Assembly (NCBI GenBank): GCA_934320895.1
Contig: CAKRFY010000005.1
Span: 70,961-134,960, forward strand
Reading direction: 5' to 3'
Length of the DNA stretch: 64,000 nt
From: an uncultured Lachnospiraceae bacterium
GTDB lineage: Bacteria > Bacillota > Clostridia > Lachnospirales > Lachnospiraceae
Part shown: positions 44,087 to 60,934 of the stretch, piece after piece
Position numbering within the stretch: position 1 is the first letter of the stretch
Layout: each line of letters begins with the position of its first letter
Program-made: the position numbers and the translations under genes
The notes under the pieces: generated by a model
The model's database searches: none
What the model saw: the letters and a program-made list of their open reading frames with translations, nothing else
Told to the model about the DNA's origin: nothing

Positions 44087-44093
44087 AAACATT

Positions 44094-44921
44094 ATGATAG
44101 TACAGCATAATATGACAGCGTTAAATGCTAACAGACAGTTAAGCATCACAAACACAAACCTTGCAAGAAGCACAGAAAAACTTTCTTCAGGTTATAGAAT
44201 CAACCGTGCATCAGATGATGCGGCAGGACTTTCTATTTCAGAAAAGATGCGTGGACAGATTAGAGGTCTTAATCAGGCATCTACAAATGCTCAGGATGGT
44301 CAGTCACTTATTCAGACAGCAGAAGGTGCTATGGGTGAGATTCATTCAGTTCTTCAGAGAATGAGAGAACTTGGAGTTCAGGCAAAGAACGATACATATG
44401 AGAATGCTGATCGTACAAAGATTCAGGATGAGGTTAAAGCACTTGAATCAGAAATCACTAGAATTGCTAGTCAGACACAGTTTAACCAGATGAATCTTCT
44501 TGATGGTACATTTACAGGTAAGCAGTTCCAGGTTGGTGCTAATGATGGTCAGACAATTGGAGTTGCAATTACTACATTAACAGCAGCAGCTCTTTCTGTA
44601 AATGGTATTGCAAGCAAGATTGGTAAGGCTGCTAAGGGTTCATCAGTTGGTAGTATTCTTACTACAATTGATAAAGCTATTACAAATGTATCTGCAAAGA
44701 GATCAGCTCTTGGTGCTCTTTCAAATAGACTTGATCATACAATTACAAATGCTGATAATATGGCGGAAAATCTTCAGTCTTCAGAGAGTAAGATTCGTGA
44801 TGTAAATATGGCAACAGAAATGGTATCTTACTCAAGCAAGAGCATTCTTCAGCAGGCTGGACAGTCTATGCTTTCTCATGCAAATCAAGCTACACAGGGT
44901 GTACTTTCATTACTTCAGTAA
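44094..44921 (+). CDS. fliC: Flagellin
   Basis: A 275-residue flagellin made almost only of the conserved D0/D1 helices: N-terminal [54 protein letters not shown] (residues 87-100), and C-terminal [20 protein letters not shown]. The variable D2/D3 region is reduced to about 60 residues (150-210), so glycans would sit on a short surface-exposed segment rich in Ser and Thr. Its own sigma-28 promoter, CsrA leader and terminator make it a single-gene unit. The glycosylation island begins right after. Confidence 0.97.
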
Positions 44922-45398: not shown

Positions 45399-45428
45399 TG
45401 TTATAATAGTTTGGAGTGATATGCATTT

Positions 45429-47270
45429 ATGGAATATTTACATGAAAATTTATTATATATAAAACAAAAAGATATTCGATTATATGAAAAAATATCTGCG
45501 ATAGTATCAGATGCTCAAAAAATTAACGGTATTAAAAGTAAATTTAATGTTATTGAAACAAAAGATAATGAAAAGACTATAGAAATCCTACAAGAAACAA
45601 ATAGGGGAGCAAGACTAAATAGTGTATATAATTCTAAAAAAGAGGCAGAGAAATTTGTAAAAAAATATGAAAATATTGATCGTATAACAGTGTTGATTAT
45701 GTATGGAAATGGAAATGGTATTTTTTATAATGAATTTCAAAATAAATTAGATGATGCTTCGATGGTATTTATTTATGAACCTGACATAGAATTATTTATT
45801 TTTTGCCTTATGAATTTTAATATGTCTAATATATTATTAAATAATAGATGTTTTATTTATGTTCAAAATGTAAATGAAAATGAATTTTTAATGGATTTAT
45901 ATAAAAAAACTAATTGGTTGATGTTACAAGGGCAGATTACATTTTATCATCCTTCATATGACAAAATAGATAAAATAAAAATTAACAAATTTAAGATTAT
46001 TATTGAAAGATATATATATGCATTAAAAGTTCAAAAAAATACTTCAATAAAATATTCAAAATTATTTACAATTAATGCAATAAACAATATGTCTTTTATT
46101 AAAAATAGTAATTATGTTGGAGAACTTGTAGGAAAAATAGATGTTGATATTCCTGTAATAATAGTGTCGGCAGGTCCATCATTAGATAAAAATATTGACG
46201 ATTTGAAAAAGGCAGAAAAAAAATCTTTTATATTGGCAACAGATACATCTGTTAAGTATTTATTAGAGCATGGCGTGGAATTTGATGCTATAGTGACAGT
46301 AGATGGAGATAAGCAGATTGATGACTTGGGTGGAACATTGTGTGAATATAAGCCAGTATTTACTATTTTAAATGCAAAAAATCAATTGTTAAGAGAGAAT
46401 AAAGGTAGAAAAATATGGATAACAGGACAGGGATATTTGGAAGAAATCTATAAAAAATATGGACATATATTCCCTGATTATATAGCAGGGGGATCGGTTG
46501 CAACGGCAGCATTTGAAGTCGCCAGGATACTTGGAACTAAAAAAATAATATTAGTTGGACAGGATTTAGCATATTTAGGTAAGAGTACACATGCGGGAAG
46601 TATTATAGATTATCATACTGAAGAAAAAGAATGTCTGTACGTTGATGGAATTAATGTTGAAAAAGTAAAAACAAGGGGAGATTGGGTTAAATATTTACAA
46701 TGGTTTGAAAATGCAATAGCTCAGTTGGGAAATGACATTCAAGTTATAGATGCAACAGAAGGTGGCGCTAAAATAAAAGGAACGAAAATCATGAAGCTAT
46801 CTGATACTATAGAAGAATATTGTCAAAAAGGTTTTGATTTTGAAAAAGTAATGTTTGAAATGTACCCAACTTTTGTTTCAAATAAATATGATTCTGTAAA
46901 AAACGATATTTGTAGTATCATGTATGAATTAGACATAATCAGTAAAGCATCAATGAGTGGAATATTAGCAGCTGAAAGAATAATAGATGGCATACAAAAA
47001 AATAAAGTACACGATAATCTTGTGCAGTATACTTTGGGAAAAATTAGTGAAGTTCGATATACTATTCAGCAACAGAAAGTGTATGTGCTTATTGATGAAT
47101 ATATTAGTGCTGACAGTGCATATATACTGGACTATGAAAATAGAAAATATGCAGATGAAATAGAAAAATTATATTATTATGCGAAAAAAAGTATAATAGT
47201 ATTTAAGGCGTTGAAAAGAGCAGTAACAGATTTGAAGCCAATTGTCAGTGAGATGGTAAGGCAATTGTGA
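45429..47270 (+). CDS. Motility accessory factor (Maf) flagellin glycosyltransferase, copy 1
   Basis: A 613-residue Maf/DUF115 protein. The GT-A-like core has VPVIIVSAGPSLDKN-type motif (PVIIVSAGPSLDKNIDDLKK), FDAIVTVDGD, AGGSVATAAFEVARILG and KIILVGQDLAYLG, with a helical C-terminal domain. Maf proteins transfer CMP-activated pseudaminic or legionaminic acid to Ser/Thr of flagellin in the cytoplasm before export. Codon use is much more AT-rich than in the flagellar genes. A second maf follows after 12 bp. Confidence 0.9.
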   Translation: MEYLHENLLYIKQKDIRLYEKISAIVSDAQKINGIKSKFNVIETKDNEKTIEILQETNRGARLNSVYNSKKEAEKFVKKYENIDRITVLIMYGNGNGIFYNEFQNKLDDASMVFIYEPDIELFIFCLMNFNMSNILLNNRCFIYVQNVNENEFLMDLYKKTNWLMLQGQITFYHPSYDKIDKIKINKFKIIIERYIYALKVQKNTSIKYSKLFTINAINNMSFIKNSNYVGELVGKIDVDIPVIIVSAGPSLDKNIDDLKKAEKKSFILATDTSVKYLLEHGVEFDAIVTVDGDKQIDDLGGTLCEYKPVFTILNAKNQLLRENKGRKIWITGQGYLEEIYKKYGHIFPDYIAGGSVATAAFEVARILGTKKIILVGQDLAYLGKSTHAGSIIDYHTEEKECLYVDGINVEKVKTRGDWVKYLQWFENAIAQLGNDIQVIDATEGGAKIKGTKIMKLSDTIEEYCQKGFDFEKVMFEMYPTFVSNKYDSVKNDICSIMYELDIISKASMSGILAAERIIDGIQKNKVHDNLVQYTLGKISEVRYTIQQQKVYVLIDEYISADSAYILDYENRKYADEIEKLYYYAKKSIIVFKALKRAVTDLKPIVSEMVRQL

Positions 47271-47282
47271 GAGGAAAAAGAC

Positions 47283-49115
47283 ATGGAATATATATACAAA
47301 AATCTTGAAAGTTTGAAAAAGAATAGAAATAAATTATATGAGAAAGTGAAAGAAAGAATAGATAATGGCAGATATAGTTTTAATAGGTTTAATATTATCA
47401 ATACAAAAAATGGACAAAAGACGATAGAAATTATTAATGGTGATAGGAATGTGAGATTAAATAGTATATATAATCCAGATTTGGAGGCGGATAGATGGGC
47501 AAATAAATATAGCTTTAAAGACTTAGATAAATTGATTATTATGTTTGGAATTGCTAATGGTATATTTGTAAAAGCTATATTGAGTAGAATGAAAAAAGAT
47601 TACTTTTTAATTTTGATGGAGCCAGATGAATCTTTATTTATATATTGTTTATATAATTTTGATTTGACTGAGATTTTAGACAATAAAAATGTTTGCATAC
47701 TTGTAAATAAAATTAATGGGGAGCAATTTAGTGATGTATTGAGAGAATGTTTAGGGGAAAAAAATTTGAATACAACGCTTGTTTGCTCACATCCAAAATT
47801 AAATGAATATTATCAAAAAGAAGCAGCACAATTTACTGAGAAGATAAGATATCAGTATGGTGAGAATGGCGCTGAGTATATAATGGCAAATTTATTTGGC
47901 AAATCAGAGATGACCAATACATTAAAAAATTTACATTTTATAAAGGACAGTAATAATGTTACGGAACTTGTTGGCAGAATTCCGAAGGATGTACCATTTA
48001 TTATAGTTGCAGCGGGACCATCGCTTGATAAAAATATAGATGAGCTTAAACGAGCGGAAGGTAGGGCATTTATCCTTGCAACGGATAGAGCTGTTAATAT
48101 ATTACTTGAACATAATATAAATTTTGATGCTATTATTACAGTTGATTCAGCTAAAAGCGTTGAATATGTAAATAATCCTAAGTGTTTTAAATATCCTATT
48201 TTTGCAGGAATTGATGCACAAAATTCCATGTTAGAGTTAAATAAGGGGAGAAAAATTTGGGTTGTAACATCTGAGTTTTTTAAGGCATTTTTGACTAAAT
48301 ATAATGTGAAGATGAGAATATATTCGGTTGGTGGATCAGTAGCAACAGCTGCTTTTAATATAGCTAGAGTTATTGAGGCTAAAAAGATAGTTCTTATAGG
48401 TCAAGACTTGGCTTATAATGGTGAAATCTCTCATGCTGGGGGTACTATTGAAAAGGGCAATTTAAATGATTGTGATGAGGTATATGTAGATGGAATTGAC
48501 GGAAATAAAGTAAAAACAAGGCTTGATTGGGTTAGATATCTGAATTGGTATGAAAAAGCAATAAGTGAGCTTGAAAAAGATGTTGAGGTTATAGATGCAA
48601 CAGAAGGTGGTGCGAGGATAAAAGGTACTAAAATAATGAGTTTGTCTGAAGTTATTGATACATATTGTACACAAAAATTTGATTTCGCAGATATGTTAAA
48701 AAAACTTTCTCCAACATTTGATGATAAACAATATTTAACTGTTAGGAGTGATTTGTTACATTTGGAGAATGAAATTAATAAAATAAAAAAATATGCTCAA
48801 AAAGGAATAAATGCATCAAAAAATTTACTTCAATTATTGGAAAGTGGTGAACAGGACTTTGAAATAGAACAGAGTTGTTCAGAAATAATAAAAGATATGA
48901 ATGATAAAATTGAAAAACAACTGGTATATCAAATAATATATAATTATATAAAGAAAGATATATATAATGTTGTGACTATGGTAAATCAAATGACTGATGA
49001 TAAAAAGGAAGATTTAAAGACCACATGTATGATTTCAAAATTTTTATATGAAAAGATATTAAAAGCAATTGAGGATATTCTTCCTATATTAAAAGATGGA
49101 TTAAAAAAAATATAG
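47283..49115 (+). CDS. Motility accessory factor (Maf) flagellin glycosyltransferase, copy 2
   Basis: A 610-residue paralogue of the preceding Maf, with PFIIVAAGPSLDKNIDELKR, FDAIITVDSAKS, GGSVATAAFNIARVIEAKKI and VLIGQDLAYNGE, and the shared segment VEVIDATEGGARIKGTKIMS. Both copies keep the family motifs and so both may be active, possibly on different Ser/Thr sites or with different donor sugars. They have diverged clearly, especially in the C-terminal third, so the duplication is not recent. Confidence 0.9.
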   Translation: MEYIYKNLESLKKNRNKLYEKVKERIDNGRYSFNRFNIINTKNGQKTIEIINGDRNVRLNSIYNPDLEADRWANKYSFKDLDKLIIMFGIANGIFVKAILSRMKKDYFLILMEPDESLFIYCLYNFDLTEILDNKNVCILVNKINGEQFSDVLRECLGEKNLNTTLVCSHPKLNEYYQKEAAQFTEKIRYQYGENGAEYIMANLFGKSEMTNTLKNLHFIKDSNNVTELVGRIPKDVPFIIVAAGPSLDKNIDELKRAEGRAFILATDRAVNILLEHNINFDAIITVDSAKSVEYVNNPKCFKYPIFAGIDAQNSMLELNKGRKIWVVTSEFFKAFLTKYNVKMRIYSVGGSVATAAFNIARVIEAKKIVLIGQDLAYNGEISHAGGTIEKGNLNDCDEVYVDGIDGNKVKTRLDWVRYLNWYEKAISELEKDVEVIDATEGGARIKGTKIMSLSEVIDTYCTQKFDFADMLKKLSPTFDDKQYLTVRSDLLHLENEINKIKKYAQKGINASKNLLQLLESGEQDFEIEQSCSEIIKDMNDKIEKQLVYQIIYNYIKKDIYNVVTMVNQMTDDKKEDLKTTCMISKFLYEKILKAIEDILPILKDGLKKI

Positions 49116-49136
49116 TTAAAAGAAAAGGAGACAAAT

Positions 49137-50114
49137 ATGTTAAATGGTAAGACAATTTTAATTACGGGTGGGACAGGTTCATTTGGAAATCATTTTGTTG
49201 ATTATGTATTAAAAAATTATAAACCTAAGAAAATTATAATTTATTCAAGAGATGAGTTTAAACAATTTAATATGGCAAATAAATATAAAAAATATAGTGA
49301 AATATTTAGATTTTTTATAGGAGATGTGAGGGATAAGGATAGACTGAAAAGAGCTTTAAATGGTGTTGATTATGTTATTCATGCAGCAGCATTGAAACAG
49401 GTACCAGCATGTGAATATAATCCGATAGAAGCAGTAAAAACAAATGTGAATGGTGCAATGAATATTGTCGATGCTGTGCTTGATTCTCCAAATGTAAAAA
49501 AGGTAGTTGCACTCTCTACAGATAAAGCAGTTAATCCTATAAATTTGTATGGCGGAACTAAATTAGTGTCAGATAAGTTGTTTATTGCAGCAAATGCATA
49601 TGTGGGAGAACGGGATTTAGCTTTTTCTGTAGTTAGATATGGAAATGTTGCTGGAAGTAGAGGCTCTGTAATACCATTTTTTAAAGAGATTGTTGCAAAA
49701 GGTGGAAAGGAACTTCCTATAACAGATTACAGAATGACAAGATTTTGGATTAGTTTAGAGCAAGGTGTTGAATTAGTTATAAAAGCTTTACATGATGCAA
49801 AGGGAGGAGAAACTTTTATTTCTAAAATTCCATCATTTAAGATAACTGATCTGGCACAGGCTATTTTACCTGGATGTGAAATGCCGGAAGTTGGTATTCG
49901 TGAGGGAGAAAAACTTCATGAAATTATGGTAACTAAGGAAGATTCATCTACTACATATGAATATGATAAACATTTTATCATTTATCCACATTATAATTGG
50001 TGGAAGAATGAGATTTTGCCAGGAGGAAAAAAAGTTTCAGATGGATTTGAATATAGTTCCGGAAAAAATGTAGAATGGTTAGATGTTGAAATGTTAAAGG
50101 AAAAAATTAAATAG
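49137..50114 (+). CDS. pseB: UDP-N-acetylglucosamine 4,6-dehydratase (inverting), PseB
   Basis: First enzyme of pseudaminic acid synthesis: UDP-GlcNAc is dehydrated with C5 inversion to UDP-2-acetamido-2,6-dideoxy-beta-L-arabino-hexos-4-ulose. The 325-residue SDR has the cofactor motif LITGGTGSFGNHFVDYVL, HAAALKQVPACEYNPIEAVK, STDKAVNPINLYGGTKLVSD (the usual YxxxK is Y-G-G-T-K) and RYGNVAGSRGSVIPFF. The SD AAAAGGAG is good. pseF follows after 13 bp. Confidence 0.93.
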   Translation: MLNGKTILITGGTGSFGNHFVDYVLKNYKPKKIIIYSRDEFKQFNMANKYKKYSEIFRFFIGDVRDKDRLKRALNGVDYVIHAAALKQVPACEYNPIEAVKTNVNGAMNIVDAVLDSPNVKKVVALSTDKAVNPINLYGGTKLVSDKLFIAANAYVGERDLAFSVVRYGNVAGSRGSVIPFFKEIVAKGGKELPITDYRMTRFWISLEQGVELVIKALHDAKGGETFISKIPSFKITDLAQAILPGCEMPEVGIREGEKLHEIMVTKEDSSTTYEYDKHFIIYPHYNWWKNEILPGGKKVSDGFEYSSGKNVEWLDVEMLKEKIK

Positions 50115-50127
50115 ATAGAAGAGGATT

Positions 50128-50838
50128 ATGAAAAGAGAAAAGATAATATTGGAATCATTAGCTGTTATAACAGCAAGAGGTGGAAGTAAAAGAATACCAC
50201 AGAAAAACATAAAAGATTTTTGTGGAAAGCCAATAATTGCTTATTCTATTGAGGCTGCCTTGGCGAGTGGCATTTTTAATGAGGTAATGGTATCTACAGA
50301 TGATGATAAAATTAAAGAAGTTGCAGTAAAATATGGTGCTAAAGTTCCTTTTATGAGATCAGAAGCCACTTCAAATGATTATGCTGCAACACACGAAGTG
50401 TTATTAGAAGTTTTGAGCGAATACAAAAAAATGGGAATTTATTTTAAAAAAATATGTTGTATTTATCCAACGGCACCTTTTATTAATGCTGAAAAATTGA
50501 GAAGTGCAGATGAAATTATGAAAAAGATGGATGTTGATTTGGTATATCCTATAGTTGCATATTCATTTCCACCACAGCGGGCTGTTAAGATAGAGAACAA
50601 TCATGCAAAATTTTTACATCCAGAGAATATTTTTACAAGAACGCAGGATTTAGAAAAAATATATCATGATTGTGGTCAATTTTATTACTTAAATGTAGAT
50701 GTTTTTGAAAATGAGAGAAAATTAATTTTGGATAATAATACTCCAATTATATTTGATGAAATGGAAGTGCAGGATATTGATAACTATGAGGATTGGGAGT
50801 TAGCAGAATTAAAATATCGTATTGTAAACTTAAAGTGA
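50128..50838 (+). CDS. pseF: Pseudaminic acid cytidylyltransferase PseF
   Basis: It activates pseudaminic acid with CTP to CMP-Pse, the donor for Maf. The 236-residue protein has the CMP-sialate synthetase-type motif AVITARGGSKRIPQKNIKDF, then MVSTDDDKIKEVAVKYGAKV and YPTAPFINAEKLRSA, and the PseF-type FPPQRAVKI and HDCGQFYYLNVDVF. An upstream SD AAGAGGA is present. A 388-bp noncoding gap follows. Confidence 0.93.
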   Translation: MKREKIILESLAVITARGGSKRIPQKNIKDFCGKPIIAYSIEAALASGIFNEVMVSTDDDKIKEVAVKYGAKVPFMRSEATSNDYAATHEVLLEVLSEYKKMGIYFKKICCIYPTAPFINAEKLRSADEIMKKMDVDLVYPIVAYSFPPQRAVKIENNHAKFLHPENIFTRTQDLEKIYHDCGQFYYLNVDVFENERKLILDNNTPIIFDEMEVQDIDNYEDWELAELKYRIVNLK

Positions 50839-51226
50839 TATTATAAAAAAAATATATATAAAATATGTTTTTTGTTTTATAAATGTAATATACTTACTTG
50901 TACATTAAAATGGATATATGAGGCTGAAAAATTAAAGAATAAAAACATAATAGAATAGAGAAGAGTAGTATAGTAAAATAAAGGTCTATAAGTACAATTT
51001 ACGATTATATAAGAATGTTAGATGTAGATGATAATTTTAATGCTTTTATGAGTACATCTTGAAATTTACTAATTCAAAGTAAAAAATGTTAAGATTACTG
51101 TGAATGTAGAAATTGAGTAGAAAATCAAGTATCTAAATATAAATGCAAAAAAATGTGGCAAGGATTGAGTGCGTAGAGATATTTGAAGTTGTAAAATGTA
51201 TTAAGTAATTATAGTGAGGTGGATAT
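50839..51226 (+). other. 388-bp AT-rich gap without a recognisable gene
   Basis: All frames are broken by stops. A fragment reading MLDVDDNFNAFMSTS ends at TGA near 51060, but I see no continuation on either side. It could be a decayed gene, or an untranslated leader of pseI. No clear terminator hairpin or consensus promoter was found. Confidence 0.5.
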
Positions 51227-52264
51227 ATGCATTTATTAGAGAGTATACAAAATAGTAGAACATACATAATAGCTGAGATGTCAGCTAATCATGCAGGAGA
51301 TTACAACAGAGCAATAGATATAATTCATGCGGCTAAAAAGGCAGGTGCAGATTGTATAAAAATACAAACATATACACCTGATACAATGACAATTGATTGT
51401 GATAATAAATATTTTTCAATCGGCGATGGAACTTGGAGGGGTGAAAGGTTATATGAATTATATGAAAAGGCATATACACCATGGGAATGGCAAGCTGATT
51501 TAAAAAAAGAAGCTGATAAAGTAGGAATAGACTTTTTGTCTACACCTTTTGATAATACATCTGTAGATTTTTTAGAAAATTTAGGAATAGAATTTTATAA
51601 AATTGCTTCTTTTGAATTAGTGGATATTCCATTAATAGAATATGTTGCTAGTAAAGGTAAGCCTATAATTATGTCTACAGGAATGGGAACTCTTGGAGAA
51701 ATAGAAGAAGCTGTTAATGCTGTTAGAAAATATGACAATGATCAAATATATTTATTAAAGTGCTCAAGTACATATCCAGCAGTAAGTTATAATATGAATT
51801 TAAATACGATGGTAAACATGAGGGAAACTTTTGGTGTTTCAGTGGGTCTTTCGGATCATTCAATGGGATCTATTGGAGCTGTAACGGCTGTGGCAATGGG
51901 GGCGGATATAATTGAAAAACACTTTTGTATAAGTAGAAGAGTAAAAAGTCCAGATTCATCATTTTCAATGGAAAAAGATGAATTTAGGAGAATGGTTGAT
52001 GATATCAGAAATGTTGAGAGGGCTAAGGGAATAGTAAAATATGGATTATCTAATGAAGAAAAGAATAGTTTGATTTTTAGAAGATCCATATTTGTAGTAA
52101 AAGATATAAAAAAAGGTGAAAAAATAACTAATGAAAATATTAGGATAATAAGACCGGGATATGGATTGCTACCTAAATATTATAACGATGTTATAGGAAA
52201 ATATGCTACTGTAGATATAGAAAGAGGCACTCCGTTGAAATTTGATATGTTTGGACATGAATAA
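51227..52264 (+). CDS. pseI: Pseudaminic acid synthase PseI
   Basis: It condenses 6-deoxy-AltdiNAc with phosphoenolpyruvate to pseudaminic acid. The 345-residue protein has the NeuB TIM-barrel signatures IIAEMSANHAGDYNRAIDII, GADCIKIQTYTPDTMTID, STPFDNTSVDFLENLGIEFY, STGMGTLGEIEEAV and GLSDHSMG, and a C-terminal SAF antifreeze-like domain (about 285-345; RRSIFVVKDIKKGEKITNEN). The SD GTGAGGTGG is strong. It is followed closely by the formyltransferase gene. Confidence 0.94.
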   Translation: MHLLESIQNSRTYIIAEMSANHAGDYNRAIDIIHAAKKAGADCIKIQTYTPDTMTIDCDNKYFSIGDGTWRGERLYELYEKAYTPWEWQADLKKEADKVGIDFLSTPFDNTSVDFLENLGIEFYKIASFELVDIPLIEYVASKGKPIIMSTGMGTLGEIEEAVNAVRKYDNDQIYLLKCSSTYPAVSYNMNLNTMVNMRETFGVSVGLSDHSMGSIGAVTAVAMGADIIEKHFCISRRVKSPDSSFSMEKDEFRRMVDDIRNVERAKGIVKYGLSNEEKNSLIFRRSIFVVKDIKKGEKITNENIRIIRPGYGLLPKYYNDVIGKYATVDIERGTPLKFDMFGHE

Positions 52265-52280
52265 AAAGGAAAATAGAAAA

Positions 52281-52877
52281 ATGAGAATATTACTTTTATA
52301 TAGTAATGATAATGCTAAGGTTTTATATAAAAAACTATATGATTTTGGAGAAAATGTAATACTATGTTCAGAAAAAATAACGTTAAACATTGTACAAAAA
52401 ATTAAACCAGAATATGTAATTAGTTATAACTATAGTTTTATAGTAGATGAAGATATTATAAAATTTATGAATGGAAGGATTGTAAATTTGCATACGTCGT
52501 ATTTGCCTTGGAATAGAGGTTCACATCCTAATTTGTGGAGCTTTATAGAAAATAGTCCTAAAGGGGTAACAATTCATCAGTTATCTGAGAAATTAGATAG
52601 AGGTCAGATTTTATTACAAAAGGAAATGATGTTTGATGTAAGAAAAGAAACATTTGCAACATCATATGATAAATTAAATGCTGAAATTGTAAAACTATTT
52701 ATTTCTAATTGGGAAGCGATAAAGAAAGGTGAAATTATCTTAAAAAATCAAGAGGGAGAGGGATCCTACCATAGAACTAAAGATTATCTTAATCTTAAAA
52801 AAAGGATAGATTTTTCTTGGAATGATAATATATATGAATTTTTGAAAAAATACGATAATTTGAAAAAAAGCAGGTGA
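52281..52877 (+). CDS. Formyltransferase-family protein in the Pse cluster
   Basis: A 198-residue protein with the formyltransferase fold: ILLLYSNDNAKVLYKKLYDF at the start, and the core NLHTSYLPWNRGSHPNLWSF with GVTIHQLSEKLDRGQILLQ. The pattern N-H-x-S/x-LPWNRG-x-PN resembles N10-formyl-THF-dependent transferases that act on sugar amines, with the usual catalytic Asn, His and Asp (N-L-H and the D of LDRGQ). It is located where pseH, the GNAT acetyltransferase, would be expected; no GNAT gene is seen. So it likely N-formylates the 4-amino sugar made by PseC. ATG 52281 was chosen for AAGGA 10 nt upstream; an in-frame ATG 52257 is possible. Confidence 0.82.
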   Translation: MRILLLYSNDNAKVLYKKLYDFGENVILCSEKITLNIVQKIKPEYVISYNYSFIVDEDIIKFMNGRIVNLHTSYLPWNRGSHPNLWSFIENSPKGVTIHQLSEKLDRGQILLQKEMMFDVRKETFATSYDKLNAEIVKLFISNWEAIKKGEIILKNQEGEGSYHRTKDYLNLKKRIDFSWNDNIYEFLKKYDNLKKSR

Positions 52878-52882
52878 TTAAT

Positions 52883-54010
52883 TTGTACATACCATATGGA
52901 AAACAGGTAATAGATGATGATGATATAAATGCAGTTGTACAGACTTTAAAGTCTGATTTTATAACAACAGGACCCAAAATAGAAGAATTTGAAAAAAAAG
53001 TTGCTGATTATGTAGGTACGAAATACGCGGTTGCAATAGCAAATGGAACAGCAGCACTTCATGCGGCATGTTTTGCAGCAGGAGTAGGTGAGGGTGATGA
53101 AGTGATTACCACACCTATAACATTTGCAGCATCAGCTAATTGTGCTTTATATTGTGGTGCAAAGCCAGTTTTTGCAGATATAGATGAGGAAAGTTATAAT
53201 ATATCTCCAGCAGATATAAGAAAAAAAATTACTGATAAAACTAAAGCAATAGTCGCTGTTCATTTTACTGGACAGCCTTGTGAAATGGATGAAATACATC
53301 AAATTGCAGAGGAAAATAATCTGATTGTGATTGAAGATGCCGCACATGCTCTTGGAGCTGACTATAAAGGTAAAAAAATTGGAAGTCTTTCGGATATGAC
53401 AACATTCAGTTTTCATCCTGTAAAGCATATAACTACAGGTGAGGGTGGGATGATAGTAACAAATAATCAGAAATTATATGAAAGGCTTAAATTATTTAGA
53501 GCTCATGGGATAACGAGAGAAGAAAAGTATCTTGGTAAAAGTGATGGACCATGGTATTATGAGCAGATTGATTTGGGATATAACTATAGAATAACAGATA
53601 TACAATGTGCATTAGGGATATCGCAAATGAATAAGTTAGATGATTTTGTTGCAAAAAGAAGAAAGCTTGTAGAAACATATAACAATGCATTTCAAGATAT
53701 TTCAGAAATAGTGACGCCAAAGCAGGTAGAAGGATGTAATAACAGTTATCATTTGTATGTTATTCAGATTGATAACAGGTTGGAGGTATTTAACAATTTA
53801 AGGGCGGCTGGAATCGGTGTGAATGTTCATTATATACCTGTATACAAACACCCATATTATCAGAAAATTGGTTATGATAATGTATATTGTCATAATGCAG
53901 AGGAGTATTATAGGCATTGCATAAGTTTACCGTTATATCCTAAACTTACAATTGAAGAACAGGATTATATAATAGAAAATGTTATAAAGTCAGTAATAGA
54001 AAAAAGATAG
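52883..54010 (+). CDS. pseC: UDP-4-amino-4,6-dideoxy-N-acetyl-beta-L-altrosamine transaminase PseC
   Basis: A PLP-dependent DegT-type aminotransferase (375 residues) that converts the PseB product to the 4-amino sugar. The PLP lysine is in TFSFHPVKHITTGEGG, with VAIANGTAALHAAC, GDEVITTPITFAASANC and IEDAAHALGADYKG. The start is probably TTG 52883, because AGGTGAT (52872-52878) is correctly spaced for it; GTG 52874 would overlap the stop of the formyltransferase and lack an SD. The overlap or near overlap implies coupling of the two genes. Confidence 0.94.
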   Translation: MYIPYGKQVIDDDDINAVVQTLKSDFITTGPKIEEFEKKVADYVGTKYAVAIANGTAALHAACFAAGVGEGDEVITTPITFAASANCALYCGAKPVFADIDEESYNISPADIRKKITDKTKAIVAVHFTGQPCEMDEIHQIAEENNLIVIEDAAHALGADYKGKKIGSLSDMTTFSFHPVKHITTGEGGMIVTNNQKLYERLKLFRAHGITREEKYLGKSDGPWYYEQIDLGYNYRITDIQCALGISQMNKLDDFVAKRRKLVETYNNAFQDISEIVTPKQVEGCNNSYHLYVIQIDNRLEVFNNLRAAGIGVNVHYIPVYKHPYYQKIGYDNVYCHNAEEYYRHCISLPLYPKLTIEEQDYIIENVIKSVIEKR

Positions 54011-54048
54011 AAATTTTAAAATATATCTATTATTAATAGAGGTGTTAA

Positions 54049-55101
54049 ATGTTTTATATAAGAGTAGATGCTAATAATAAGATAGCGACAGGGCATGTGA
54101 TGCGTTGTATGTCAATAGCAGATGAAATAAAAAAGAGAAATATAGATGTATGTTTTTTGACTGCAGATCATAATGCAGATGGGTTGTTGCATAAAAAGGG
54201 GTTTATTACTAAATGTCTTGATTCCAAGTGGGATAATCTTGAAAATGAAATGATATCAGGAAAAATTAATTCTGTACTTGAAAATGACAATAATATTAAG
54301 GGGATATTAGTTGATACTTATTATGTGACAGAGAAATATCTTGATAGGCTTAGAAAAATATGTAAAACTATATATATTGATGATATTTTTGCATTACATA
54401 GATATCCTGTTGACTTCTTGCTCAATTATAATATATATGGAACTGATTTGGATTATAAAAGTAGATGTTTGCCAGAAACTAAATTATTATTGGGAACAAA
54501 ATATGTGCCTTTGAGAAAAGAGTTTCAAAATATAAAACCAAAATTCAGAAAAATAGTAAAAAATGTTTTTATTAGTACTGGTGGAACAGATAATTTTAAT
54601 ATAGCTGGAAAAATTTTAGATACCATATTTCAAAAATCAGTTTTAGAAAAAAGTTCAATATTTAAAGAAATAAACTATCATGTAATATCTGGGGCTATGA
54701 ATAAGAATTTATCCTATTTGTTAGAAGTTAGTAATAGGCATAATAATGTTTTTGTACATCAAAATGTGTCAAATATGGTTGAAATAATGCTTATGTGTGA
54801 TATAGCTATAAGTGCTTGCGGTTCTACTATGTATGAATTGTGTGCGTGTGGAATGCCGATAATTACATATTCATTTGCCGACAACCAGATATATGGAATT
54901 AAAAAATTTTATGAACTTGGAATAGCAATCAATTGTGGAGATGTAAGAGATGGAATTGAAAAGGTAGTCCAGTTAATTTTAGATAATGTAGTTATGATGT
55001 GCAGAAATAATGTACAAAGATTGGTGTATTCAAGAAATGCTAGTGCGTTGATTGATGATAGGAGTATAAGTAATATCGTAAATATGATTATGAATAATTA
55101 G
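54049..55101 (+). CDS. pseG: UDP-sugar hydrolase PseG
   Basis: It removes UDP from the modified altrosamine before PseI acts. The 350-residue GT-B-fold protein starts MFYIRVDANNKIATGHVMRC; the histidine in GHVMRC corresponds to the catalytic base of PseG. Later motifs are LLGTKYVPLRKEF, FISTGGTDNFNIAGKIL, SACGSTMYELCACGMPIITY. Compared with the roughly 275-residue Campylobacter enzyme it is longer, mostly at the C-terminus. The SD AGAGGTG is good. Confidence 0.9.
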   Translation: MFYIRVDANNKIATGHVMRCMSIADEIKKRNIDVCFLTADHNADGLLHKKGFITKCLDSKWDNLENEMISGKINSVLENDNNIKGILVDTYYVTEKYLDRLRKICKTIYIDDIFALHRYPVDFLLNYNIYGTDLDYKSRCLPETKLLLGTKYVPLRKEFQNIKPKFRKIVKNVFISTGGTDNFNIAGKILDTIFQKSVLEKSSIFKEINYHVISGAMNKNLSYLLEVSNRHNNVFVHQNVSNMVEIMLMCDIAISACGSTMYELCACGMPIITYSFADNQIYGIKKFYELGIAINCGDVRDGIEKVVQLILDNVVMMCRNNVQRLVYSRNASALIDDRSISNIVNMIMNN

Positions 55102-55116
55102 GCGATTGGAGAAAAA

Positions 55117-56097
55117 ATGCAATTTAAAGAAAATTTTTTTATAGATGAGATAAGAAATGATTTTAAGATTCCTGCCATGATGAAAAGGGCGTGGGCGGCA
55201 GAAATGGAAGTACTTGAAGTTGTATCTGATTTATGTCGAAAAAATAACATTAAATATTTTGCAGATTGGGGAACAATGCTTGGAGCTGTCAGACATAATG
55301 GATTTATTCCATGGGATGACGATATTGATATATGTCTATTGCGTAAGGATTACAATAGGTTGATTAAGATTCTTAAGACTGATTTACCATATGGTTTTGT
55401 TCTTGCAGGAATGTATAGTGATTCAAAAAGATTACAGGAAGCAGCCTTTGTTCCTCATGCAAGGGTGATAGCTGATGAAACACTTTGGGATTTTAACGAC
55501 TATATGGTGAGATTTCATGGTTTTCCATATCAGAGGATAGGAATAGATATTTTTCCAGTTGATAAGGTTTCTAGTGACAATGAGGCAGACAAAAAACAGC
55601 AGAGGATTATAAAAAATGGAGTAGCGATTTTACAGAATTGGAATTACATGTTGGAAAATGATATACTGGAGAATAAACTGTCGGCTTTTGAAAAAGAGGC
55701 TGGAATTAGCCTTAGCAGAGATGAAAATATAAAAAATAAAATGTGGCGTGAGATTGACAATATAAGTATGTGGCACGAAAATGAAGATTGTGAAAATGTA
55801 GCTGAAATAATTTTTTATATTGATAATGAGGGGAATAGATGTAAACGGCAATGGTTTTCGGAGATGATGCCAATGAAGTTTGAAAATATGGAGATAATGA
55901 TTCCAAAGGATTATGATAAAATATTACATACATATTATGGAGATTATAATGAGTTTGTAAAATTTGCAGGTGATCATAACTATCCATTTTATAAACATAT
56001 GCAGAAGGAATTATTAAAACAAATAAGAGCTGTGGGATTTAGGGGATCTGTAGAAATGTTTTGTCAAGCAGTAGCTAGTGGCAAGTTAAGAGTCTGA
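55117..56097 (+). CDS. LicD-family phosphotransferase
   Basis: A 326-residue LicD protein: IKYFADWGTMLGAVRHNGFI then PWDDDIDICLLRKDYNRL carry the nucleotidyltransferase-like DDDID metal site. LicD enzymes transfer phosphocholine or a similar phospho-alcohol from a CDP carrier to a sugar. The next gene encodes a LicC-type nucleotidyltransferase fused to an aminotransferase, which would make the CDP-linked substrate. So this is the likely transferase of a phospho-linked decoration on the flagellin glycan. It starts 15 bp after pseG. Confidence 0.85.
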   Translation: MQFKENFFIDEIRNDFKIPAMMKRAWAAEMEVLEVVSDLCRKNNIKYFADWGTMLGAVRHNGFIPWDDDIDICLLRKDYNRLIKILKTDLPYGFVLAGMYSDSKRLQEAAFVPHARVIADETLWDFNDYMVRFHGFPYQRIGIDIFPVDKVSSDNEADKKQQRIIKNGVAILQNWNYMLENDILENKLSAFEKEAGISLSRDENIKNKMWREIDNISMWHENEDCENVAEIIFYIDNEGNRCKRQWFSEMMPMKFENMEIMIPKDYDKILHTYYGDYNEFVKFAGDHNYPFYKHMQKELLKQIRAVGFRGSVEMFCQAVASGKLRV

Positions 56098-56134
56098 TTT
56101 TTATTAAATTTTTTTAATTTATAAGGGGGTAGAT

Positions 56135-57961
56135 ATGCAGGCTATAATTTTGGCAGCGGGAATGGGAAAAAGATTACAGGAATTAACTAAAGATAATACA
56201 AAATGTATGGTAAAAGTAAATGGAATAACAATGATTGAGAGATGTCTTAGAATTTTGGACTACAAACATTTATCAAGAATTGTTATTGTTGTGGGATACA
56301 AAGGTGATAATTTAATAGAATTTATTGATAGTTTGAAAATTGTTACACCTATATGTTATATAAATAATCAGGTATATGATAAGACAAATAATATCTATTC
56401 ACTTGCTTTAGCAAAAGAGTATTTGTGTAGTGATGATACATTGCTTCTTGAGTCAGATTTAGTGTTTGAAGAAGAAGTTATAGATTTATTGATTAGTGAT
56501 AGCAGAAGTACACTTGCACTTGTGGACAAGTTTGAAAGCTGGATGGATGGGACATGCATGGAGCTTGATGATGATGATTGTATTGTTGATTTTATACCTG
56601 GAAAACATTTAAAGTTTAGTGAGAAAGAAAAGTATTATAAAACAGTTAATATATATAAATTTAGTAAATATTTTTCAAATAATATTTATGTACCTTTTTT
56701 GTCAGCATATGAAAAGGCTATGGGGGAAAATGAATATTATGAATCTGTAATCAAACTTATTGCTATGTTAGAAACTAAAGAAATACGGGCAAAAAGACTT
56801 TGTGGACAGAAATGGTATGAGATTGATAATGCTCAGGATTTAGATATAGCTGAGTCAATATTTGCAGACAGCACACGGGAAAAATTGGAAAAAATATCAG
56901 GAAGATATGGGGGATATTGGAGATATCCTAAAATGATTGACTTTTGCTATCTTGTTAATCCATATTACCCACCAAAGAAAATGGTTGAAGAGATTAAGTC
57001 AAATTTTGATATATTGTTGACACAGTATCCATCAGGAATGAAAGTGAATTCATTATTGGCTGCAAATAATTTTGGAATAAGTGATAAATGTATAATTGTT
57101 GGAAATGGTGCGGCTGAACTTATAAAAACTTTAATGCAAAAAATTTCTGGAAATACAGGGGTTATATATCCGACATTTCAGGAGTATCCAAATAGATATA
57201 ACAAAGAAAAAATTATTGCATTTAATTCAGGAGAATATAATAACAATTTTAGGTATTCTGAAGATGATATAATAGATTATTATAATGATAATGAAATAAA
57301 TAACCTGATTATAGTAAATCCTGATAATCCTAGTGGAAATTATATTTCATATAATGGTTTATTAAAATTGATAGATTGGTGCAAAAGTAAAAATATTAAA
57401 TTTATATTAGATGAAAGTTTTGTTGATTTTGTTGAACTTGAGGGTGTAGAAACTGATATATCTGAATTGACACTTTTAAGACAGGATATATTAAATAGAT
57501 ATACAGGCTTGTATGTTATAAAAAGTATATCAAAGTCATATGGTGTGCCAGGATTGAGACTAGGGATAATGGCAAGCTCAGATATTAATATGATTGCTGA
57601 GTTAAAAATGGATGTGGCAATTTGGAATATAAATTCGTTTGCTGAATTTTGGATGCAGATTGCTGAAAAGTATAAAAAGGATTATACATTGGCTATTGAG
57701 AAGTTTAGGATAAGCAGAAAGAGGCTTGTTGAAGAACTAGAAAAAATATCATGGATTAAAGTGCTGCCATCACAGGCAAATTATGTTATGTGCGAACTTA
57801 TTAGTAAAGAGAGCACCGAGATATGTGCAAATTTGCTTGAAAAAGGTATTTTTATTAAAGATTTATCTGATAAGATAAATAATGGAAAACAGTATATAAG
57901 AATTGCAGTAAGAGATGAAGATGGCAATAAAAAGCTTATAGATGTTTTAAAGGTGATGTGA
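56135..57961 (+). CDS. Nucleotidyltransferase / PLP aminotransferase fusion
   Basis: A 608-residue two-domain enzyme. Residues 1-240 are a LicC-type sugar/alcohol-phosphate nucleotidyltransferase (IILAAGMGKRLQELTKDNTK, CMVKVNGITMIER, LLLESDLVF). Residues about 255-608 are a HisC/CobD-like class I PLP enzyme (GNGAAELIKTLMQ, IIVNPDNPSGNYIS, FILDESFVDF, SISKSYGVPGLRLGI with the PLP lysine in SKSYG). CobD-like proteins decarboxylate threonine phosphate to aminopropanol phosphate; others transaminate. The same fusion architecture occurs, as I recall, in the C. difficile type A flagellin operon. I infer that it prepares and activates a phospho-amino compound for LicD. The start has SD AAGGGGG. Confidence 0.85.
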   Translation: MQAIILAAGMGKRLQELTKDNTKCMVKVNGITMIERCLRILDYKHLSRIVIVVGYKGDNLIEFIDSLKIVTPICYINNQVYDKTNNIYSLALAKEYLCSDDTLLLESDLVFEEEVIDLLISDSRSTLALVDKFESWMDGTCMELDDDDCIVDFIPGKHLKFSEKEKYYKTVNIYKFSKYFSNNIYVPFLSAYEKAMGENEYYESVIKLIAMLETKEIRAKRLCGQKWYEIDNAQDLDIAESIFADSTREKLEKISGRYGGYWRYPKMIDFCYLVNPYYPPKKMVEEIKSNFDILLTQYPSGMKVNSLLAANNFGISDKCIIVGNGAAELIKTLMQKISGNTGVIYPTFQEYPNRYNKEKIIAFNSGEYNNNFRYSEDDIIDYYNDNEINNLIIVNPDNPSGNYISYNGLLKLIDWCKSKNIKFILDESFVDFVELEGVETDISELTLLRQDILNRYTGLYVIKSISKSYGVPGLRLGIMASSDINMIAELKMDVAIWNINSFAEFWMQIAEKYKKDYTLAIEKFRISRKRLVEELEKISWIKVLPSQANYVMCELISKESTEICANLLEKGIFIKDLSDKINNGKQYIRIAVRDEDGNKKLIDVLKVM

Positions 57962-57972
57962 GGAGATTTGTT

Positions 57973-58686
57973 ATGAACAAATGGGATATGATATGGAAAA
58001 ATAGAGATGTGGGAACAGATATAAATTTAGAAGATGATGTATTTAAAATGTTTTGTAAGTTAAAGCGAGCAGACGGATTTGATACACAGGAAATATCCGG
58101 GTATTATGAAGCATTTTTTGAAGAATGGAAAAGATTTGAATCAAATATTAGGGAGATAGCAGGTAAATATAGTAGCGTGTTTGAAGTAGGATGTGGAAGT
58201 GGTGTAAATTTATATTTGTTCAAAAAATTAGTTGGATGTACCCAATTGGGCGGAGTGGATTATTCTCAAAAATTAGTAGATGTTGCAAAAAAGATAATAC
58301 TATCAGAAGATATAAGATGTATGGAAGCGATAGATGTTGATGTAGAAAAGAAATATGACATTGTCATATCAGATAGTGTATTTCAATATTTTCAGACTCG
58401 TGAATATGGTATAGATGTGCTTGAAAAGATGTATAATAAAGCGAATAAGTGTATAGTTATAACAGAAATACATGATATTGATAAAAAAACTGAACATTTA
58501 AATTACAGAAGACAATGTGTAGAGGATTATGATAAGAAATATGAAGGTCTAGACAAAACATTTTATTCTAAGAATGATTTTATAAATTTCTCAAATAAAG
58601 TTGGAGCAAAATGTTTGATAAGACAACCAGAAAATCAGTTATATTGGAACAATAAATTTGTGTTTGACTGTTATATTGTGAAGTAG
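57973..58686 (+). CDS. Class I SAM-dependent methyltransferase
   Basis: A 237-residue methyltransferase with a Rossmann motif I VFEVGCGSGVNLYLFKKL, motif post-I GVDYSQKLVDVAKK and motif IV-like YDIVISDSVFQYF. The next-to-aminotransferase position fits N-methylation of the phospho-amino compound or of a sugar amine. The frame is open from a GTG at 57958, but ATG 57973 follows the SD AGGAGA by 6 nt. It overlaps no gene and starts 11 bp after the fusion gene. Confidence 0.82.
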   Translation: MNKWDMIWKNRDVGTDINLEDDVFKMFCKLKRADGFDTQEISGYYEAFFEEWKRFESNIREIAGKYSSVFEVGCGSGVNLYLFKKLVGCTQLGGVDYSQKLVDVAKKIILSEDIRCMEAIDVDVEKKYDIVISDSVFQYFQTREYGIDVLEKMYNKANKCIVITEIHDIDKKTEHLNYRRQCVEDYDKKYEGLDKTFYSKNDFINFSNKVGAKCLIRQPENQLYWNNKFVFDCYIVK

Positions 58687-58736
58687 AAAAATATTGGATA
58701 GATTAAAAATTAGAGTTGATATAGAGGAATGACAAT

Positions 58737-60800
58737 ATGGAACCAAAAGTAAAAAATTTTAATAATGAAAAACAGAGAATAATAAATGCAGTTAAAAATG
58801 ATGAAACAAATATGGAGATAATAGCAGGGGTTGATGATTATCTTAATAAATATCCAGGTGATACAGATATAATAATTGTTAAAGCTTATATGGAGTTGAT
58901 AAATGATAATGTAGAACATGGAATAGAATTACTTAAGTTTGTACTAGAAAAGTGTCCATTTTCAATAGATGCTTTGTTTTTGATTGGACAGGCATATAAT
59001 GAACTTGGTGAATATTATAATGCAATGAATTGTTTAGGAATTGCCGAAAGACTTGATGATTGGTTTTATTTGCTTAATCGTGAATATGTATATTTATTTT
59101 ATAATAATGAGATATGTGTTAGTTTGTTAGATAATGTGAGAGAAAAATTAGCTTATTTGGCGAATATTGTCCCCGAACAAAAACAATTGTTGGAAAAATT
59201 TGAATTGGACTTAAAAAATAATTTTTGGCTATTTAAAGACATAGTACGTATGGATGATGAAATTATAGGAAATTATTTTTGTAATGAAATGTCAGATATA
59301 CATTTTTGTGCTATATATGATCCATATTCATATTTAGCATACAAAAAGGAATATCCTAAAAACTTACAATTACTAAAAACAGAAATGTTAAAACCATTAA
59401 AATCTGGAACCAATATAGAATTGAGGTTAAAGTCGGAATCATTGGTTCCTATTTTAAATAAAGAGAAATTAACTCAGATAGAGATCAAACAAAATAATGA
59501 TAATAGTGTGTTAATACCAGAATATCATAATATGCATTTTAATTATTTTAAAATGAAAAAAGGAAATATAAAAATCTCTTCTGATAAGGAATTAATTGTA
59601 GCAGAACCAGTGCCATTAGTACACCATAAAAATAATAAAAAACTTGTGATAAGTTTATTTGTAGATGGAATTTCTCAAAAAGTACTTAAAGAATATGGGC
59701 TGGAAAATATAATGCCAAATACATATAATTTTTTTAAGAATGGAATGATATGTAATAATACATTTTCATCATCAGATTGGACATATCCAAGTGTAGGGAG
59801 TTTAATGTCAGGTCTTTCAGTAACAAATCATATGATGATTCATCCATATATAAATGTAAAATTTCCTAAAAATCAAAAATTGTTGTTTGAATATTTTAAA
59901 GAAGCTGGATATCATACAACCCTTATGAGTGGTGATTGGCGTTCAACATCTGCAACATACGATGCAACAAGAGGTGTTGATCGATATATTGCAAAGCATC
60001 AGAATTGTGGATTTAGGACAGAAGATGTAATTTCAAATGTAATAGACCATTTAGAAACATTTAATGGAACAGATGAATATGTCTGGGTTGGAACAGGAGA
60101 TTTACATGATATTGCAGATGAATATAGTCTTCCAACTGATATTCAGGCAAAAATGGATTTGGAAGAGTTTAATATAGGTAAGAAATCTAAAACTTCAGTT
60201 AAACAGGAATATAATATAAATAAAATTAGTATGTATGTAAAAACTGCTACGCATATTGATTCAAAATTAAAGGTTTTATATGATTATATTGAAGAAAATT
60301 ATAAAGAAGATGAATTTGTTGTAACATTATTTGGTGATCATGGTCAGGCATATATCGTTAAACCAACAGAATTTCATTTATCGAGAGGTATGACCAATAT
60401 TGGGTTTATGACAAGAGGTGGTGGAGTTTCTGGAGTAAGTGATGAATATATAAATATAGTTGATTATACAAATATAATTACGAAATTAGCAGGCATGGAA
60501 AATGTAAATATAGACAGCGATGGAAGGCTGCCTAAAACATTTGGTGGAGATAGAGAAAATGATTTTGCTATATCAGAGACTATTCATCCAGGTGATCCAT
60601 ATATGATAGCAATGCATGGTTCAGAGTATACTTTTTATATGGAATCAGATGCAAGTGTTACTGATTATGGAAAGGTCGATTTGTCAGTGTATAATACTAA
60701 ATTGTATGATTCTGATGGAAATGAAGTTTTTGATAAAAGTATTATAGATAAATTTGTTGACTTTGTTTTAGATAGGACAAAATATATACAGATTTATTAA
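58737..60800 (+). CDS. TPR / alkaline-phosphatase-superfamily protein, copy 1
   Basis: A 687-residue cytoplasmic protein (no signal peptide or TM segment). Residues about 40-130 are helical TPR-like repeats (IDALFLIGQAYNELGEYYNA). From about residue 300 it is a sulfatase/alkaline-phosphatase fold: first metal Asp in LVISLFVDGIS (Asp310), nucleophile Thr/Ser in SSDWTYPSVGSLMSG (about 347-359), GDLHD near 455 and LFGDHGQA (533-536) for the second metal site. Such enzymes transfer or hydrolyse phospho- or sulfo-groups, including phosphoethanolamine and glycerophosphate. The neighbours suggest the phospho-decoration of flagellin glycan as substrate. A close paralogue begins at 62331. Confidence 0.8.
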   Translation: MEPKVKNFNNEKQRIINAVKNDETNMEIIAGVDDYLNKYPGDTDIIIVKAYMELINDNVEHGIELLKFVLEKCPFSIDALFLIGQAYNELGEYYNAMNCLGIAERLDDWFYLLNREYVYLFYNNEICVSLLDNVREKLAYLANIVPEQKQLLEKFELDLKNNFWLFKDIVRMDDEIIGNYFCNEMSDIHFCAIYDPYSYLAYKKEYPKNLQLLKTEMLKPLKSGTNIELRLKSESLVPILNKEKLTQIEIKQNNDNSVLIPEYHNMHFNYFKMKKGNIKISSDKELIVAEPVPLVHHKNNKKLVISLFVDGISQKVLKEYGLENIMPNTYNFFKNGMICNNTFSSSDWTYPSVGSLMSGLSVTNHMMIHPYINVKFPKNQKLLFEYFKEAGYHTTLMSGDWRSTSATYDATRGVDRYIAKHQNCGFRTEDVISNVIDHLETFNGTDEYVWVGTGDLHDIADEYSLPTDIQAKMDLEEFNIGKKSKTSVKQEYNINKISMYVKTATHIDSKLKVLYDYIEENYKEDEFVVTLFGDHGQAYIVKPTEFHLSRGMTNIGFMTRGGGVSGVSDEYINIVDYTNIITKLAGMENVNIDSDGRLPKTFGGDRENDFAISETIHPGDPYMIAMHGSEYTFYMESDASVTDYGKVDLSVYNTKLYDSDGNEVFDKSIIDKFVDFVLDRTKYIQIY
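58983..59201 (+). repeat. 219-bp identity tract shared with 62577-62795
   Basis: This stretch of copy 1 is identical at every base to 62577-62795 of copy 2, although flanking parts of the two genes differ clearly. This is the pattern left by gene conversion or recent unequal exchange. Confidence 0.85.
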
Positions 60801-60859
60801 ATATGTATATAGTAAGCTTCCTGTATACTTTAAATAAGCCAAGAGATTGACACAAAAAA

Positions 60860-60929: not shown

Positions 60930-60934
60930 CTAAC

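Follow-up and report, generated by a model that had tools for sequence, protein, structure and literature searches.

A putative flagellin glycosylation island of a Lachnospiraceae bacterium joins pseudaminic acid synthesis to a predicted phospho-amine cassette

Introduction

What would a bacterium attach to its flagellin from a locus in which the genes for pseudaminic acid (Pse) synthesis run on into genes for a phosphorus-linked head group? Such a locus lies in 64,000 nucleotides from an uncultured Lachnospiraceae bacterium (GenBank assembly GCA_934320895.1, contig CAKRFY010000005.1, positions 70,961 to 134,960), the whole of which we call the window. Tightly packed on one strand, a flagellin gene is followed by an open reading frame (ORF) of 124 amino acids without a Pfam match, two Maf genes, pseB, pseF, a gap, pseI, a formyltransferase gene, pseC, pseG, licD, a gene fusing a cytidylyltransferase to a pyridoxal phosphate (PLP) domain, a gene for an S-adenosylmethionine (SAM) methyltransferase and a last gene, whose product combines tetratricopeptide repeats (TPR) with a PF00884 domain; the unit probably runs from the flagellin (44094) to the end of this last gene (60800). 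Judged from its genes, the chances seem to us evenly poised that this is a flagellin glycosylation island made of two joined parts, one for the synthesis of a Pse-type sugar and the other a head-group cassette. Gut Lachnospiraceae flagellins are major immune antigens, and a Pse glycan bearing a zwitterionic phospho-amine, if it is indeed made, would change both the surface charge of the flagellin and its recognition.

Results

A preliminary description of this DNA had listed pseB, pseF, pseI, pseC, pseG, licD, the fusion and the methyltransferase, and NCBIfam and Pfam scores bear out each of them at its place (Table 1); it had passed over the formyltransferase gene between pseI and pseC, the Maf genes on the 5' side and the last gene on the 3' side. 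Its statement that the genes follow one another without a break fails between pseF and pseI; from pseG through licD, fusion and methyltransferase to the last gene the spacings are 15, 37, -4 and 50 bp. Domains were assigned by scanning 13 island ORFs against Pfam and by the NCBIfam cut-offs for the Pse families; gene names in neighbourhoods that come from neither profiles nor searches were assigned by eye. PseB, PseC, PseG, PseI and PseF all exceed their equivalog cut-offs, and these five enzymes of the path from UDP-N-acetylglucosamine to cytidine monophosphate (CMP)-Pse are therefore present. No GNAT (PseH-type) domain was found in the 13 island ORFs, and none of them qualifies as PseH. The formyltransferase, whose ORF opens at TTG 52242 and more likely starts at ATG 52281, has PseJ as its best match among solved structures. 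PseJ replaces PseH, yielding 7-N-formyl Pse. Acylation at N4 would thus fall to the PseJ-like enzyme and, with a formyltransferase instead of an acetyltransferase, the product would most likely be CMP-Pse that is N-formylated at C7. The gap between pseF and pseI contains a formyltransferase-like remnant of 33-36 amino acids (44-45% identity), a weak and short match with E values of 1.4e-6 and 3.7e-6, calculated per query when ORFs taken from 64 loci were compared with the gap alone. Two relatives match it, and one of them (L135) is a fusion of GNAT and formyltransferase. From this short match, the gap may hold the remains of an older, decayed acyl-transfer gene.

What would the second part of the island make? 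The fusion, 608 amino acids long, consists of a cytidylyltransferase domain (about residues 1-245) and a PLP domain (about 250-608), and belongs to a very large family, with at least 7999 candidates matched at an E value of 0.001 or better; source listings name it as a PLP enzyme or give it an unrelated name. Structure matches were obtained with Foldseek and rechecked with VIA-align, which covers the Foldseek matches only, so that absence there excludes no family. The solved structures nearest to the N-terminal domain are PntC, the 2-aminoethylphosphonate (AEP) cytidylyltransferase, and, in second place, LicC. In an alignment of 24 rows chosen from 120 listed fusions, R13 and K23 correspond in every row to R15 and K25 of PntC, the catalytic arginine and lysine of the nucleotidyltransferase motif, and Glu106, present in all 24 as well, aligns with PntC Glu104 and LicC Asp105. 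In PntC, Glu104 is reported to lie near the AEP amine (PMC6697681). The PLP domain resembles SMUL_1544 and CobD in fold and sequence, and its nearest solved relative is SMUL_1544, a decarboxylase.

The two genes behind the fusion were followed through other genomes on their own. A search with the methyltransferase alone matched 3 of 397 genomes of the family at 1e-40, and a phosphoenolpyruvate (PEP) mutase gene is found in two of these loci: in L198, and in L199, where methyltransferase and last gene stand with an AEP transaminase, the PEP mutase, LicD and a cytidylyltransferase-kinase fusion. On the third, a contig of 7.6 kb (L200), neither PEP mutase nor last gene was seen. The family of the last gene is much smaller than that of the fusion (142 matches), and a search with it alone matched 8 of 392 genomes of the order (9 places) at 1e-50. 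Five of the eight stretches obtained in this way carry head-group genes, namely PEP-mutase, PntC-like and phosphonopyruvate-decarboxylase-like genes in L201 and L207, and choline-kinase/LicC-like genes in L202, L203 and L204 (L207 and L204 partly by BLAST only). Pse-like or Neu-like matches (24-57% identity) or, in L203, a flagellin match occur in L201, L202, L203, L207 and L208. At positions 1-4379 of L203, a flagellin-like gene precedes a cytidylyltransferase-choline kinase fusion and a TPR/phosphatase-fold protein. Both families thus tend to follow small phosphorus-linked head-group chemistry.

The AlphaFold2 model of the last protein has a pLDDT (predicted local distance difference test) score of 93; its TPR part is seen as helices in the model and as Pfam TPR matches in relatives. 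Thr349, Asp310, Asp534 and His535 are found in 53 of 53 chosen rows, which comprise 50 of 120 listed relatives and 3 Selenomonas copies. A sulfatase was considered and rejected for this protein: in sulfatases a Cys or Ser becomes formylglycine, and here Thr349 of the WTYPS stretch, read by eye as the nucleophile position, is invariant, the fold itself not separating sulfatases from phosphotransferases.

Based on these comparisons, we propose a pathway whose substrates, methylation site, acceptor and last step we infer from the genes. PseB, PseC, PseG, PseI, PseF and the formyltransferase would produce CMP-Pse, most likely in its 7-N-formyl form. Maf proteins are nonulosonate transferases, and the two encoded here would transfer the Pse-type sugar to flagellin in the cytoplasm. 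The PLP domain would convert O-phospho-L-serine (or phosphothreonine) into phosphoethanolamine (or aminopropanol phosphate), the cytidylyltransferase fused to it would turn this phospho-amino-alcohol into its cytidine diphosphate (CDP) derivative, the methyltransferase would methylate the head-group nitrogen and LicD would move the phospho-amino-alcohol onto the sugar on flagellin, while the TPR/phosphatase-fold protein may act as a further phosphotransferase or as a phosphodiesterase with an editing role. Taken as a whole, a route from a decarboxylated phosphoserine-type substrate through N-methylated CDP-ethanolamine, or a close homologue, to a LicD-modified formyl-Pse flagellin glycan has in our estimate an even chance of being correct. 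The earlier proposal of a CDP-linked phospho-amino acid or amino alcohol that is N-methylated and transferred by LicD in a flagellin setting is still the best fit, with the amino acid now the poorer option. An amino alcohol is more likely because the PLP domain has a decarboxylase as its nearest solved relative, the N-terminal domain is nearest to PntC, and relatives of the methyltransferase and the last gene are common to phosphonate modules; AEP being the C-P analogue of phosphoethanolamine, this last point is the main reason. A phosphonate module in the window itself was considered and ruled out by the absence of a PEP mutase from the 13 ORFs scanned, so that a phosphate ester rather than a phosphonate is to be expected.

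How general is the fusion? Its neighbours were counted in 80 loci of named genomes (L001-L080), the best 80 of at least 568 confirmed and thus a non-random sample, in which some loci are shorter than 5 kb. An octopine-dehydrogenase-type gene is present in 29 of the 80 and stands no more than 200 bp from the fusion in 27; at such loci the amine may be N-carboxyalkylated rather than methylated. LicD is found in 28 (within 200 bp in 14), the methyltransferase and a TagF-like gene in 4 each and the last-gene family in 3. In 5 of the 80, fusion and FliC are no more than 10 kb apart, a raw count uncorrected for background. Flagellin-linked cases are a Selenomonas ruminantium metagenome-assembled genome (MAG), L034, L050, L061 and L195. 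The Selenomonas MAG has LicD, fusion, methyltransferase and last gene in the same order as the window, about 22 kb from FliS-FliD-FliW and inside a glycosyltransferase block with GT41, GT2 and TibC-like genes. In L034, FliD-FliS-FliC are followed by LicD, four further genes and the fusion; in L061, the genes after FliC are GT2-TPR, one that looks TagF-like by eye, and the fusion, an order that L050 repeats except that three ORFs separate FliC from GT2-TPR.

As a separate observation, L050, L061, L195 and L021 all have a flagellin near a GT2-TPR or GT2 gene, a TagF-like gene (by eye) and the fusion, a layout resembling the type A locus of C. difficile with the fusion in the place of CD0242; an octopine-dehydrogenase-type gene comes next in L050 and L061. 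Three of the genes called TagF-like by eye in these four loci were scanned and gave no Pfam match.

The methyltransferase directly adjoins the fusion in L006, L011, L066, L068 and L196, with no Pse gene matched in the stretches fetched. In L006, L011 and L196 there is no flagellar match either, and the pair has acyltransferase-like, YidC-like or pseudopilin-like genes (by eye) as neighbours; L196 carries it at 8959-13507, near the pseudopilin-like genes and a PF04464 protein. On a tree of 82 fusions (87 candidate rows less those removed by length and match filters; 3 of the 7 methyltransferase rows are near-copies), pairing with the methyltransferase needs at least 5 changes, a value as low in 5 of 500 shuffles (shuffled mean 6.8), and the two genes have therefore joined, or parted, repeatedly.

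Is the union of Pse and head-group genes peculiar to the window, as had been supposed? PseI was found at an E value of 1e-90 or better in 77 of 348 genomes of the family (78 places), and 55 of these places, with 5 from a separate search, provided 60 Pse stretches, four of them shorter than 6.2 kb. FliC occurs in 9 of the 60, Maf in 11, PseJ in 4, PEP mutase in 3, LicA in 2, LicD in 2 and the last gene in 1; a looser cut raises Maf to 12 and PseJ to 5 and adds five partial fusion matches (18-39% of the length, in L147, L148, L160, L175 and L177). Head-group markers (PEP mutase, LicA/LicC or LicD) are present in six: in L147, AEP genes and the last gene accompany Maf and Pse, L177 has AEP genes, L160 and L175 have LicA/LicC, and FliC, Maf and Pse are joined by a TarI-like gene and LicD in L166 and by LicD and a PntC-PEP-mutase fusion in L148. 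A further case, L201, came from the search with the last gene and holds two Mafs, the last gene, PntC-PEP-mutase, PseF and PseI. The combination of the two pathways therefore recurs; the full-length fusion was found in none of the 60.

L148 deserves a mention of its own, as its positions 3140-8494 hold two flagellins, Maf, Pse, LicD, the PntC-PEP-mutase fusion, a phosphonopyruvate decarboxylase and an iron-type alcohol dehydrogenase, which makes it a candidate locus for a flagellin tagged with hydroxyethylphosphonate.

The preliminary description had also suggested looking for the same gene set in other Lachnospiraceae. None of the 60 Pse stretches and none of the 80 fusion loci repeats it exactly, and neither does any fusion locus from two near genera, of which 28 and 3 genomes were covered and 1 and 2, respectively, possess the fusion. 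A partial counterpart exists in the nearest genera: L194, from genome G301, has the last gene and the fusion (with one in-frame stop) and, on the opposite strand of the same contig, a 393-amino-acid ORF and a PseG-like gene, with Maf-PseI-PseB on another contig of G301.

Table 1. Features of the island, with positions in the window
Feature	Position	Strand	Evidence
Flagellin (FliC), presumed acceptor	44094..44921	+	PF00669 4e-45, PF00700 8e-24
Maf-type flagellin glycosyltransferase 1	45429..47270	+	PF01973 1.5e-33
Maf-type flagellin glycosyltransferase 2	47283..49115	+	PF01973 3.1e-34
pseB, UDP-GlcNAc 4,6-dehydratase (inverting)	49137..50114	+	TIGR03589 529 bits, cut-off 408
pseF, CMP-Pse synthetase	50128..50838	+	TIGR03584 297 bits, cut-off 206
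Gap with possible decayed formyltransferase C-terminal stretch	50839..51226	.	388 bp, no ORF of at least 90 amino acids
pseI, Pse synthase	51227..52264	+	TIGR03586 474 bits, cut-off 340
PseJ-like N-formyltransferase replacing PseH	52281..52877	+	PF00551; PseJ 6ci4 E 1.8e-36
pseC, aminotransferase	52874..54010	+	TIGR03588 521 bits, cut-off 424
pseG, UDP-sugar hydrolase	54049..55101	+	TIGR03590 203 bits, cut-off 154
licD, putative CDP-head-group phosphotransferase	55117..56097	+	PF04991 E 3.2e-38, 132.5 bits, gathering score 22.6
608-amino-acid fusion, cytidylyltransferase and CobD/SMUL_1544-like PLP domain	56135..57961	+	NTP_transf_3 and Aminotran_1_2
SAM methyltransferase, proposed head-group N-methyltransferase	57958..58686	+	PF13649 1e-8
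Last gene, TPR and alkaline-phosphatase-superfamily protein	58737..60800	+	PF00884 2.9e-18

The island is preceded on its 5' side by flgN and by genes that we named by eye as flgK-, flgL-, fliW-, fliD- and fliS-like. Directly 3' of it lies an IS110-type transposase in two ORFs (60935-62181), where the GC content reaches up to 0.41. Elsewhere in the window, at 7989-10690, an arylsulfotransferase (PF05935) is followed by an adenosine phosphosulfate (APS) kinase (PF01583), and APS-kinase-like genes adjoin members of the last-gene family in L207 (by Pfam) and L205 (by eye); these genes may be connected with sulfation or with CDP donors phosphorylated at the 3' position. No match to the island was obtained by megablast in a plasmid collection, and no RNA element in positions 43900-62500 reached the Rfam gathering score. 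A promoter scan found 140 candidates, compared with 122 (standard deviation 11) in shuffled sequence, and is uninformative.

Discussion

Several observations pull against the proposed N-methylated phospho-amino-alcohol on a Pse glycan. The PLP domain scores 162.3 bits against the CobD equivalog TIGR01140, whose cut-off is 290.55; by sequence its second match, above CobD, is the HisC-labelled chain 3ftb; and a Lys is invariant across the 24 fusions where CobD and SMUL_1544 carry Arg. The domain might for these reasons still be a PLP aminotransferase. In the cytidylyltransferase domain, Glu203 aligns with LicC Asp192 and the second PntC glutamate (Glu196) falls one column off; the positions of LicC Y190, W191 and Y215, which we take to be part of the choline pocket, are Tyr in the fusion; and residues 197-236 have a pLDDT below 50 in the AlphaFold2 model. 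YejM, LtaP and also sulfatases are among the fold matches of the last protein, and in two of the eight loci found with its gene alone (L205 and L206) no head-group module and no marker of glycans or flagella was seen. The fusion was found at a coverage of at least 60% in none of the 60 Pse stretches. Finally, because its association with the methyltransferase has varied and because non-flagellar fusion loci exist, the fusion appears to be a general head-group maker that was recruited to flagellin loci several times, rather than an enzyme specific to flagellin.

Could the head group be an amino acid after all? The flagellin of C. difficile type A carries a phosphodiester-linked N-methylthreonine and that of P. 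aeruginosa PAO1 an N,N-dimethylthreonine (PMC10714395, PMC11833859). Following these precedents, the fusion would make CDP-threonine or CDP-serine, with the PLP domain as a transaminase or supply enzyme, the methyltransferase would N-methylate the amino acid and LicD would transfer it; the island shares with them a layout in which a CTP enzyme, a methyltransferase and a phosphotransferase are close to flagellin. We consider this unlikely: no HAD-type gene is present in the 13 island ORFs scanned, the PLP domain has a decarboxylase as its nearest solved relative, and the relatives of the methyltransferase and of the last gene accompany genes for AEP, a product without a carboxylate. Moreover, the C. 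difficile operon had been said to contain a similar nucleotidyltransferase-aminotransferase fusion, which does not agree with the published account: CD0242 is described there as a nucleotidyltransferase, 97% of whose sequence was modelled on a pyrophosphorylase, and not as a fusion (PMC10714395).

A second explanation places the licD-fusion-methyltransferase cassette in the synthesis of another surface polymer (a capsule, a wall teichoic acid or a different glycan), its position behind the Pse genes being due to chance. The size of the fusion family speaks for it, as do the 75 of 80 fusion loci without a FliC match in the stretch fetched, and so do the methyltransferase-fusion pairs of L006, L011 and L196 in their non-flagellar surroundings; the possibility named at the outset that fusion and LicD belong to capsule or wall loci thus partly applies. 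We nevertheless regard chance placement as decidedly unlikely, given the tight spacing on one strand with the pse and Maf genes and the flagellin-linked cases in Selenomonas, L034, L050, L061 and L195. Quite improbable, finally, is an O- or N-methylation of Pse itself with everything else as we propose. In its favour, the best Pse-related hidden Markov model for the methyltransferase is the Pse-associated methylase TIGR03587, at 38 bits against a cut-off of 112; against it, the family adjoins the fusion in five loci without a Pse match in the stretch fetched, and L198 and L199 have it together with phosphonate genes.

What are the wider consequences if a methylated phospho-amino-alcohol is placed on the Pse glycan? 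The type of modification found on type A and b-type flagellins would be extended to a new sugar and a new head group. In addition, testable assignments would become available for the very large fusion family and for the small TPR/phosphatase-fold family, which tracks phosphonate, phosphocholine-type and phospho-amine modules. As a tentative and, in our view, doubtful generalization, Lachnospirales and Selenomonadales might share a way of tagging flagellin in which a cytoplasmic nonulosonic-acid (or other) glycan receives an exchangeable phosphorus head group (hydroxyethylphosphonate, AEP, a phosphocholine-type group or N-methyl-phosphoethanolamine) through swappable CMP/CDP modules, with the TPR/alkaline-phosphatase-like protein and its invariant Thr as the common cytosolic head-group transferase.

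How does the island compare with systems already described? In the open-licence literature we found no paper that joins pseudaminic acid, flagellin and licD, a scope that does not establish absence from print. Like the type A (cd0240-cd0244) and PAO1 b-type (pa1088-pa1091) loci, the island combines a proposed CTP-dependent activating enzyme, a methyltransferase and a phosphotransferase for a flagellin sugar (PMC10714395, PMC11833859), and the phosphodiester-linked, N-methylated amine of those flagellins has here a counterpart predicted from the genes. In contrast to them, the sugar pathway is that of Pse, the activating enzyme does not stand alone like CD0242 but carries a fused PLP domain of decarboxylase-like kind, the transferase is LicD instead of the TagF-like CD0244 (no PF04464 in the island ORFs scanned), and the scan revealed no HAD gene of the ThrH or CD0241 kind. 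The island, which would work in the manner of the type A and b-type systems, is not a member of that group, because transferase, activating enzyme and sugar differ and no CD0241-like gene is among the ORFs scanned.

With Maf-type Pse glycosylation of flagellin the island shares PseB, PseC, PseG, PseI and PseF and two Mafs after the flagellin, but it has a PseJ-like formyltransferase for PseH and the head-group cassette in addition. The licABC/licD phosphocholine pathway likewise has a LicD-family transferase and a LicC-like cytidylyltransferase; here no choline-kinase domain was found in the ORFs scanned, and the amine would come from an amino acid and methylation, not from choline uptake. SMUL_1544 and CobD, which are O-phospho amino acid decarboxylases, are alike in fold and sequence to the PLP domain, whereas this domain is fused to a cytidylyltransferase outside a cobamide locus; C. 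jejuni Cj1436, another such decarboxylase, is likened to it by description only. PntC of T. denticola is also reported to be fused to a PLP enzyme (PMC6697681), but compared with PntC/AEP-transaminase tailoring the PLP domain here is of class I/II (PF00155), not class V. The absence of a PEP mutase from the ORFs scanned sets the island apart from that tailoring and from AEP alike. AEP itself has been observed on C. difficile flagellin, its origin being left open there (PMC8861647); it is the closest observed chemistry to what we propose, and it fits a wider pattern of flagellin loci with head-group modules.

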